DNA of 64,000 bases from Gordonia hongkongensis (GTDB taxonomy: Bacteria > Actinomycetota > Actinomycetes > Mycobacteriales > Mycobacteriaceae), in contig NZ_CP095552.1 in assembly GCF_023078355.1 (NCBI RefSeq), positions 1,116,001-1,180,000 of the forward strand. Direction: 5' to 3'. The notes under the pieces are model-generated. The model was not told the origin of the DNA and did no database searches. It saw nothing but the letters and a program-made list of their open reading frames with translations. This document shows, one piece after another, positions 10,149 through 25,084 of the stretch (its first letter is position 1; each line of letters starts with the position of its first letter). A program made the position numbers and the translations under genes.

Positions 10149-13100
10149 ATGAACAATTCGTCCAACCCGGAGGTCGCGGCACCCGACGCCCCGCGTCGTT
10201 TCACCCTCAGCGCGGCCCAGCGATCGCTGTGGTTCACCCAGCAGGCGGCGCTCGATGTGCCGATCAACGTCGCCCAGTACGTCGAGATCGACGGCCCCAT
10301 CGACGCCGAACTCTTTGTGCGCGCGACCAGCACGGTGGTGCAGCGCGCGCAGTTCACCCAACTCCGGTTCGTCGACACCGAGGACGGGCTGGTCGGCGTG
10401 TACGACCCCGGCCTGCACTACTGGGCCGACATCATCGATCTCCGTGACCGGCCGGACCCGCGCGCCGTCGCCGAGGAGATGATGGCGCAGGACTATTCGC
10501 GACCCCTCGACCCGCGGGTGGACCGGACCGCGCGCGGGTGCCTGTTCCGGCTGTCCGACGACAAGGCGCTGGTCTACAACCGCGGTCATCACCTGCTCTC
10601 GGACGGGATGGGCGGCAAGGACCGGATGGTCGAGGCCCTCGCGGCCTATCACGCGGCGGTCACCGGCGAGCCCGCACCGCCCCAGAAGCCGGTCGACCTG
10701 GACCTTCCGGCCCGTGCCGACGCCGAGTACCGCCAGTCGAAGCGCTTCGCCACCGACCGCGCGTACTGGCAGGAGAACATGGCGGGCGTGGGGATCGCCG
10801 CGACCCTGGCGCATCGCCCGGGGCGTCCCGCCGCCGTTGCCAGACGCGTCGCCGCCGCGGTGCCCGCCGACACGATGGCGCGGTTGCGTGCGGCCGCACA
10901 ACACGGTTCGACGATCCTGCCCAACGTTCTCGTCGCCGCCTTCGCGGCCTATCTGGGCCGCGCGGCCGCGCAGGGCGACGAGGTGATCTTCCAGTTCCCG
11001 GTCGCCGCGCGGACGACCGCGGCGCTGCGTGCCACCCCGCTCCCGGTCGCCAACATCGTGCCGCTGCGCACCGGGGTCACCGGATCGGGCAGCGTCGCCG
11101 ACGCGCTCGCGTCCACCCAGGCCGCGCTCATGGGCGCGCTGCGGCACCAGCGCTACCGCGGCGAGGACATCTGGGCCGACCTCGCCGCCGACGAATCCTC
11201 CGGGGCGACACCGCGCACAGCGGCTCAGGAACGCTCCGGCCCGATGCTCAACCTCATGTTGTTCGACCGCGAATTCCCCTGCGGCGAAGCACGAGCCACG
11301 TTTCACATCCTGACCGTCGGCCCAGCCGACGACCTGACGATCAACATCTACCCGGTACCCGGTGAGGATCAGGATTCCTCGCTGATGATCGGCGTCGAGG
11401 CGAACCCCAACCGGTACGACGACGCGGAGGTCGCCGAACACCACGGGCAGTTCCTGTCGATGCTCGACACGTTCGCCGATGCGCTCCTCCGGGCACCGGA
11501 CACCCGCGTCGACGATCTGCCGCTGCGATTCTCCGACACCTCGGCCGGAGAGGCGCGTGAGCTGCCGGCGAACGAGGCGCCGGACGCGGGCACCGTCTGG
11601 ACGGCCCTCACCGACGTCGCGCTGCGTCACCGGCACGAACCCGCCGTCGAGTCGGGTGGAACATCCCCGGACGCAACGCTGCTGACCTTCGAGCAACTGC
11701 ACGCGCGGGCTCGCGACCTCGGCGCCCGGTTGCGCACGCTCGGAGCGCGACCCGGCTCGGCGGTCGGCGTCCTGGTCGGGTCGGACGCGGACCGGGTGCT
11801 GTCGTGGTGGGCCGTCGCGGCGACGGGGGCCGCCGTGATCCTGCTCGATCCCGCAGCACCGCAATCGATGTCGCCGAATGTCCCGGGGGTGTCCGGCGTG
11901 CTGGTGATCGCCGACGACGATGCGGACGTGCCGGCCGGCGTCCGCGCGGAGGACGTGCACACGCTGTCCGGACTGACCGGGGTCGCGCCGTCGGCGGAGC
12001 CCGTGTCGTCCCGTCCGGAGGACACCGCTTGCTTCGTCGTCGGCGCCGAGGGTGTCGTCGCGCTGCCGCAGCTGGCCGTGGCCGCGCTCATCGTTGACGG
12101 CCTGTTCGCGCCGGAAGCGTTCGGCCACAACGTATCCGACGCGGGACATGGACAGCTCGCGGTCACGGCGCCGATGGCCTCCTGGGCGGCCCACCTCGAG
12201 ATCGTCGCCGGTGCCGCGCACGGGCTGCGGCTCGTTGAGCCCGACGCCGCCGGAGTGACGCACCGGATCGTGCCCTCCGGGCTACTTGCCGACGACACGG
12301 GGCACGGCGCCGCGACGACGGTGCTGATCGTCGACTCCGGCGCCGCGCCGGCGCCGGCCGTCCGATACGCCGCCGGCCGCGAGGTGCGAACCGGCTACAG
12401 CCCTCGGGGCGTGCTGGGCCCCTTCACCGCAGCGAACCGGGTCCGTCCCGACCAGCCGATCGACCGGCCACTCCCGAGCGGGCACCCGCGCGACGGCGTC
12501 GGCATCGCGATCCTCGACCGCCGTCTACGACCCCTGCCGCCCGGCATCACGGGCGACGTGTACGTCGTGGGAAGCGTTGTGCCACAGCACTTCGCTGGGG
12601 AAGGCTCGCGTACGTCGACGACACTCGTCGCCTGTCCGTGGCATCCCGGCCGGCGCATGCTGGTCACCGGCGACCGCGGGCATCTCGAACCGGGGACGGG
12701 ACTTCTCGTCATCGATCACCGCGCCGGTGAGATCGTCGAGATCGACGGCATCCGAGTCGATCTCGCACTGCTCGAACGTGCCGCCGCGGAGGTCCCCGGT
12801 GTTGCGGCCGCGACCGCGACCGTACTCGGCGACGGCGACGGCGACGGCGACGGCGACGGGCTCGCGCTCGGACTCGTGCCCGCCCGTTCCGCGTCGTCGG
12901 AGGCGACCGAACCCCCTGATCCGCAACGGATTCGGGCGGCGGCTCGGCGCCGGGTCAACGCGGAACTCCCGGCGGTGCTGTGGCTTCGCCGGGTCACGAT
13001 CCTGGATGCGGTACCGCTCGACGGGTTCGGCGGCGTCGACCGGTCTGCCGCCGCCGGGCTGATCGCCGCGGCGCCCGAAACGCCCGCCGCGCGCCGCCGT

Positions 13101-25084: not shown

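Follow-up and report, generated by a model that had tools for sequence, protein, structure and literature searches.

The subject of this analysis is a giant non-ribosomal peptide synthetase (NRPS) gene of Gordonia hongkongensis and the genes with which it keeps company, contained in a 64,000-nucleotide stretch of the 5.41 Mb genome that is referred to as the window (G000:C1:1116001-1180000). Coordinates are window positions unless marked otherwise; G labels denote the Gordonia genomes compared (n = 59), with G000 as the source genome, and L labels denote loci with their flanks. The synthetase region at 10149–25084 (forward strand) is followed by a gene for a Wzb-like low-molecular-weight protein tyrosine phosphatase (LMW-PTP; 25078–25701, forward strand, motif CTGNICRS) and by one for a DUF4012 protein (25698–27458, forward strand), which consists of a membrane helix, a helical region, a core at residues 204–415, and a C-terminal beta sandwich. 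Upstream lies the 3′ half of a variable polysaccharide island (1–9504), the 5′ half of which is located upstream of the window. We consider it fairly probable that the gene encodes a lipopeptide synthetase with five carriers that is dedicated to an envelope polysaccharide system of the Wzx/Wzy type equipped with Wzc, Wzb, and DUF4012 proteins.

Domain scans and core motifs agree with the order given in a preliminary description of this DNA, C-A*-T-C-A-T-C-A-T-C-T-C-A-T-TE, which comprises five condensation (C) domains, four adenylation (A) domains, the first of them degenerate (A*), five carrier (T) domains, and one terminal thioesterase (TE). Membership of the NRPS class is evident from C, A, carrier, and TE domains, all present with their core motifs. 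The reported lack of an epimerase and of an MbtH gene also stands: no epimerisation domain was detected beyond the five Condensation stretches, the dual E/C motif was absent by a simple pattern, and both MbtH copies of the genome are situated at 3.99–4.00 Mb, with none adjoining the NRPS.

The first condensation domain (C0; 10191–11528, forward strand) is the most conserved part of the protein, with 93% identity to the three nearest relatives. Its best PDB matches were 7c1h, 7c1k, and 7c1p (144–149 bits), ObiF1 (131), EntF (122), and CDA (calcium-dependent antibiotic) synthetase I (105–106), which we take to be starter domains, 7c1h presumably being that of rhizomide; the internal domains C1 and C3, used as controls, had other top PDB matches. 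In a quick tree of 42 C-domain rows, from which the first C domain of locus L184 was left out, C0 falls into a group of 28 rows (support of 99 in the Shimodaira–Hasegawa-like approximate likelihood ratio test) that unites the Gordonia C0 rows with the first C domains of nine NRPSs linked to DUF4012 in other genera and also takes in 4 of the 14 other C domains of the G000 genome, while C1–C4 and the remaining ten lie outside it. The 15 Gordonia C0 rows constitute one clade (100) regardless of gene order; a cross-genus NRPS clade based on C0, suggested at first, was not upheld by this tree. Judged by its nearest relatives, C0 is a starter-type (acylating) domain, and the product is thus likely to carry an acyl cap.

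The adenylation domains indicate what the rest of the peptide might contain. The first, A1* (11601–13073, forward strand), is the least conserved domain (64–68% identity to the three nearest relatives) and, in the close clade and G011, has neither the A3 core motif nor sensible pocket letters. Most of A1 is deleted in G050, G017, G024, and G054, where the serine of the adjoining carrier T1 (13101–13328, forward strand, LGATSL, intact in the window) is retained, and a first A domain with the core motif is found in G031 (both copies) and G033. Pocket letters were extracted at the positions taken to line the pocket, from domains cut out with an A-domain profile, which also served to establish NRPS adjacency in G028 and G040; this profile detects A domains although one of its three rows (A5) was in a wrong frame. 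Those of A2 (14634–16103, forward strand), DFWSVGMVHK, are presumably Thr-like, with the last positions varying among several relatives. A3 (17784–19283, forward strand) has DAMLAGEVAK; G011, G033, and G045 deviate from it by one or two letters, and the other Gordonia copies examined are identical. The letters of A5, read by eye in the window as DAHTYGIVTK, are the same in the close clade, G050, G017, G024, G054, and G011, and differ in G031. A further module, C3-T4 (19644–21332, forward strand), has no A domain at all, so that the five carriers stand against three adenylation domains; because neither T1 nor T4 has a working A domain, both would have to be charged in trans or be bypassed. Starter-C lipopeptide synthetases (CDA; 7c1h), which supply the best solved relatives of C0, differ in these respects, as the first-module A domain is dead or missing in most of the copies considered here and C3-T4 has none.

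The preliminary description spoke of a single protein, which is true of nine close relatives but not of this assembly, in which the coding sequence occupies two frames. The length of 10149–25084 is not divisible by three. The first frame (10149–22826, forward strand) encodes C0-A1*-T1-C1-A2-T2-C2-A3-T3-C3-T4-C4, amounting to 4,225 residues until the frame is lost, and ends at 22826, whereas A5-T5-TE lie in another frame (22454–25084, forward strand, with domains from ~22694); the change is sited in the C4-A5 linker at ~22.70 kb. Behind the break, the domains retain 76–91% identity to the three nearest relatives, and differences from G038 are distributed over the three codon positions as 72/67/225, compared with 42/31/129 in the in-frame C4. 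Because the part behind the break is still similar and its changes fall mostly in third positions, the break is either an assembly error or very recent, and the region behind it is accordingly constrained or only just released from constraint. Close relatives were defined as the ten genomes with an A* identity of at least 49% (11 close genomes when G000 is counted), and in nine of these ten (G038, G055, G021, G046, G020, G005, G003, G056, and G025) the NRPS is unbroken, with open frames of 4,928–5,044 codons, for which reason a programmed frameshift is not favoured. In the tenth, G034 (L081), the gene is also split, but elsewhere, in the A2 region; in G028 (L112), the phosphatase and DUF4012 genes are in pieces and only a fragment of the NRPS is present. 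The broken copies of G034 and G028 represent either decay or draft errors. The frame change, the dead A1, and the A-less modules could also be read as signs of a dying gene that has lost its function in this strain, and the frame change and the erosion of A1 do point that way; such a loss is nevertheless highly improbable in view of the intact copies in nine of the ten close relatives, the similar third-position bias on either side of the break, and the fact that the decay of A1 is common to relatives that retain C0 and the T1 serine.

The coupling of the NRPS to the phosphatase and DUF4012 genes, proposed earlier, is borne out by overlaps between consecutive reading frames: the NRPS gene ends at 25084, just past the beginning of the phosphatase gene at 25078, whose stop is in turn overlapped by the likely DUF4012 start, an ATG at 25698 (start inferred). 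The phosphatase contains the LMW-PTP CX5R motif and passes PF01451 (94.1 vs. a cut-off of 23.2 bits), although it remains below the NCBIfam Wzb equivalog cut-off (57.2 vs. 243). The DUF4012 protein is 93% identical to that of G. lacunae, and fusions of the two partners occur in seven of the database proteins listed (P0012, P0013, P0015, P0016, P0018, P0019, and P0020), five of which are from named Gordonia. Across the genus, a strong DUF4012 match is present in 26 of the 59 genomes (27 with the weak match of G026, E 8e-5, which was left out of the 26). A phosphatase orthologue (at least 44% identity and at least 119 bits) accompanies it in 25 of these 26 genomes and in none of the other 33, and NRPS domains adjoin DUF4012 in 23 of the 26, the exceptions being G019, G027, and G053; the 23 include G040, where the locus is split across two contigs, and G028 with its NRPS fragment. 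As a background value, stretches no more than 10 kb from a C domain make up 6.2% of the G000 main contig. The Fisher tests on co-occurrence ignore kinship. The genes occur in the orders Wzc-NRPS-phosphatase-DUF4012 and Wzc-DUF4012-NRPS, the neighbours being retained despite reshuffling, and G030 and G031 each possess two NRPSs, two DUF4012 proteins, and two Wzc proteins of this type.

In G000 itself, Wzc is encoded in a second polysaccharide locus (locus B; genome ~1.259–1.270 Mb), ~128 kb from the NRPS, which contains a priming transferase (Bac_transf, 227.4 vs. a cut-off of 27), a WecG-type and a GT4 transferase, two pyruvyl transferases, Wzy (Wzy_C, 33.4 vs. 31.7 bits), a nitroreductase-like protein, and a full Wzc of the bacterial tyrosine kinase (BY-kinase) class that bears Walker motifs and has a tail rich in tyrosine (genome 1,268,942–1,270,474, or L205:16942-18474). 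For Wzx, the Polysacc_synt match in G017 scored 26.2 against a cut-off of 28.2, and none was recognised in the ten locus-B open reading frames (ORFs) scanned. Wzc of locus B passes TIGR01007 (157.7 vs. 108.05 bits), whereas the Wzz protein of the island next to the NRPS fails it (67.5) and has Walker motifs that look degenerate by eye. A tree of 58 rows, from which repeated Wzz rows had been removed and which carries a long-branch warning, likewise splits the Wzc type from the Wzz type of the island and places the G000 Wzc among 24 Gordonia rows that form one clade (99/96), together with Wzc proteins encoded directly beside the NRPS elsewhere in the genus. This Wzc type (at least 275 bits) is present in 22 of the 59 genomes, all of which have DUF4012; the 33 genomes without DUF4012 score 97 bits at most, and the DUF4012 genomes lacking the type are G027, G028, G045, and G053. 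In the six close genomes with both genes on one contig (G000, G038, G055, G020, G034, and G056), they are separated by 128–149 kb. The arrangement in G017 brings everything together, running from a priming transferase through sugar and glycosyltransferase genes, a flippase-like gene (below cut-off), and a GDSL gene to Wzc, NRPS, phosphatase, and DUF4012, with the NRPS thus sitting between wzc and wzb. On these comparisons, the constant and putatively ancestral polysaccharide partner of the NRPS is the Wzc-type kinase locus and not the adjacent island. It was also observed that the branches of this Wzc type are very long even between closely related species (G000 groups with G020), which gives the impression that locus B is exchanged in the manner of a serotype locus.

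The same associations bear on a different explanation, in which the product is a free secreted lipopeptide, surface-active or antibiotic, that shares only inheritance or regulation with the polysaccharide genes and has no chemical link to their product. The combination of a type I thioesterase with a C domain of starter type suits released lipopeptides, and the existence of DUF4012 loci without an NRPS indicates that the glycan machinery occurs alone; however, the neighbours stay together across several gene orders and in two genomes with doubled sets, and the ORFs scanned next to the NRPS include no recognised exporter, apart from an island membrane protein without a family match. We regard a free lipopeptide as a minority possibility, and a synthetase dedicated to the polysaccharide system as the preferred reading.

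The preliminary description had placed the NRPS with the adjacent glycosyltransferase/flippase operon. The link to surface polysaccharides survives in the form given above, but the island as a constant partner does not. The whole island extends from ~10.4 kb of L095 to window position 9504; its 3′ half carries two sugar-nucleotide dehydratase/epimerase genes, a GH39-like ORF (below cut-off), glycosyltransferases, and the membrane protein mentioned above, which has about seven hydrophobic segments, and the island also includes Wzz-like proteins, an acyltransferase, an esterase, and a priming transferase. Within L095:12574-19236, three secretory-lipase-like proteins stand together with an acyltransferase and a SASA esterase, an unusual density of acyl-ester enzymes for one polysaccharide island. 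An island occupies the same site in G005 and G056 and probably in G003, where it extends towards the end of its contig and the NRPS opens the next contig fetched. Seven of the 11 close genomes (G038, G055, G046, G020, G034, G021, and G025) lack it beside the NRPS; in these, the chromosome is colinear with L095:1-8917 and continues, after about half a kilobase, with the upstream blocks of the NRPS, the synthetase, phosphatase, DUF4012 gene, and upstream DNA all being kept. The occurrence of NRPS and polysaccharide genes apart in relatives, which the preliminary description had named as an argument against its own proposal, is therefore real as far as the adjacent island is concerned.

Of the two upstream blocks, the first (9917–9944, forward strand) has 0–1 mismatch in 10 of the 11 close genomes and is diverged in G038, and the second (10073–10094, forward strand) has 0–1 mismatch in all 11, with or without the island. 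They are ~150 bases apart, and the fetched loci contain no further occurrence of them at 0–1 mismatch. A structured RNA leader was not detected, with no Rfam match at E 1 within 9400–10400. Since the blocks are kept both with and without the island, the NRPS looks like its own transcription unit. These observations weigh on the model of the preliminary description, in which the product would be a glycosylated lipopeptide resembling glycopeptidolipids, decorated by the glycosyltransferases of 4181–9504 and exported by the membrane protein. Direct adjacency in G000, G005, and G056, and probably in G003 despite the contig break between the genes, speaks for it; the absence of the island at the site in 7 of 11 NRPS-bearing close genomes, the NRPS's own conserved upstream blocks, and the island's possession of a Wzz and a priming transferase of its own make it very unlikely.

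Two neighbouring ORFs downstream may be recorded here. A DUF222/HNH ORF (27993–29252, reverse strand) lies between DUF4012 and an enoyl-CoA hydratase gene in G000 and G055, was not seen at that place in G038, G046, G020, G056, and G025, and looks like a small insertion; and an ORF at 32245–34380 (reverse strand), kept in several close relatives, encodes a single chain that matches both ThiF (E1-like) and nitroreductase.

What the DUF4012 protein might contribute is suggested by its structure model, in which the core at 204–415 has a LytR-CpsA-Psr (LCP)-like fold and was assigned to the LCP fold when tested for membership. Homology to LCP proteins was not apparent by sequence: PF03816 matched three other places in G000 at E 0.001 but not the DUF4012 gene, hhalign gave probabilities of 1.3 and 0.2, which did not surpass those of two controls (one comparison used 40 of the 120 listed LCP proteins), and PF03816 did not appear in the families shown (25 of 34) for 66 DUF4012 proteins. 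Searches by sequence against solved structures gave no match at E 1. The conserved residues are R211, E222, R224, D310, D316, Y351, and R361. Because the core resembles LCP proteins in fold, DUF4012 may join a lipid-linked glycan to an acceptor; compared with the LCP glycopolymer transferases, it is distinguished by the lack of a sequence-profile match, an extra helical region, and the C-terminal beta sandwich.

Beyond Gordonia, DUF4012 (PF13196) was detected in 131 of 397 genomes of the order, and 40 places were read with their flanks, 20 from the same family outside Gordonia and 20 from other families. NRPS C domains were present at 6 of the 20 same-family places and at none of the 20 in other families, while Wzz-type proteins were found at 11 of the 20 same-family places and at all nine loci of genus g25. 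Among nine named loci, which may overlap in species with the 40 places, five have C domains, all in Rhodococcus or Rhodococcoides, and four do not, one of them in Gordonia. In 9 of the 11 C-positive loci of other genera, the NRPS and DUF4012 genes are divergent, and the pocket letters differ. The two genes of L176 are separated by a priming-transferase-like ORF. L184, from genus g11 of the family, has an NRPS with a Gordonia-like 3′ half directly beside DUF4012, seemingly including the A-less C-T module (C3 44% identical). DUF4012 is thus primarily a protein of polysaccharide loci, to which NRPSs are a recurrent addition in Gordonia, Rhodococcus, and their kin.

Several known systems share parts of this arrangement. 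With Wzx/Wzy capsule and exopolysaccharide (EPS) systems that employ a BY-kinase and an LMW-PTP, it has in common Wzc, a Wzb-like phosphatase, a priming transferase, Wzy, and two pyruvyl transferases (locus B), but here an NRPS and DUF4012 belong to the linked set, which in G000 is split over two sites. In mycobacterial glycopeptidolipid loci, the MbtH-like gene sits within the locus. Glycopeptidolipids resemble the proposed product in being N-acylated NRPS peptides at the cell surface, and their synthesis involves two synthetases (Mps1 and Mps2), a polyketide synthase (PKS) for the acyl chain, a required MbtH-like protein, and an amino-alcohol end (PMC3537567). In contrast to a pair of synthetases yielding a tripeptide-amino alcohol, the Gordonia system has one synthetase ending in a TE and no MbtH gene nearby, and no dedicated PKS was found among the window ORFs scanned, which were part of all ORFs; a glycopeptidolipid synthetase is rejected given the single TE-terminated protein and the MbtH copies at 3.99–4.00 Mb, in line with the difference from such synthetases stated in the preliminary description. 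The EPS locus of Bifidobacterium longum 105-A contains a priming transferase, DUF4012, and wzz next to one another, with DUF4012 listed as auxiliary to an envelope protein, and no NRPS is named in the part of its description consulted (PMC5412050). No literature on an NRPS together with Wzc, Wzb, and DUF4012 was found, judged by titles and the openings of abstracts.

We infer the identity of the NRPS product and its link to a glycan from these genomic relationships, and the preferred reading can be set out as follows. C0 would cap the peptide with an acyl group, the assembly line would add a short peptide (a Thr-like residue at A2, then the residues of A3 and A5), and the TE would release the lipopeptide. 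The polymer would be built on a lipid carrier, Wzc and its phosphatase would control how long it becomes and its export, and DUF4012 would perform the final joining of the polymer. The lipopeptide would then act together with the exported polysaccharide, either attached to the polymer or as a membrane-side acceptor. Bacterial polysaccharides that carry amide-bound amino acids are known, and the same gene linkage would accommodate a decoration of the polysaccharide repeat with peptide or amino acids, which the TE or a partner would place on the sugars before export; such decoration seems distinctly unlikely, as the starter type of C0 implies that the peptide is acyl-capped, and the scanned ORFs include no recognised peptide-to-sugar transferase.

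A dedicated lipopeptide synthetase would tie a family of orphan giant synthetases to a definite machine, and it corrects a natural but misleading reading in which the NRPS works with its immediate glycosyltransferase neighbours. To our knowledge, little is settled about the way in which actinobacterial capsules are attached. DUF4012, a family known by number only, gains a testable role as an LCP-like glycan ligase. More speculatively, and with rather low confidence, the lipopeptide may be the membrane-side acceptor of a capsule-like polysaccharide, with DUF4012 as the LCP-like ligase that joins the Wzy polymer to the acyl-peptide; if this were true, DUF4012 would represent a widespread second kind of glycopolymer ligase.
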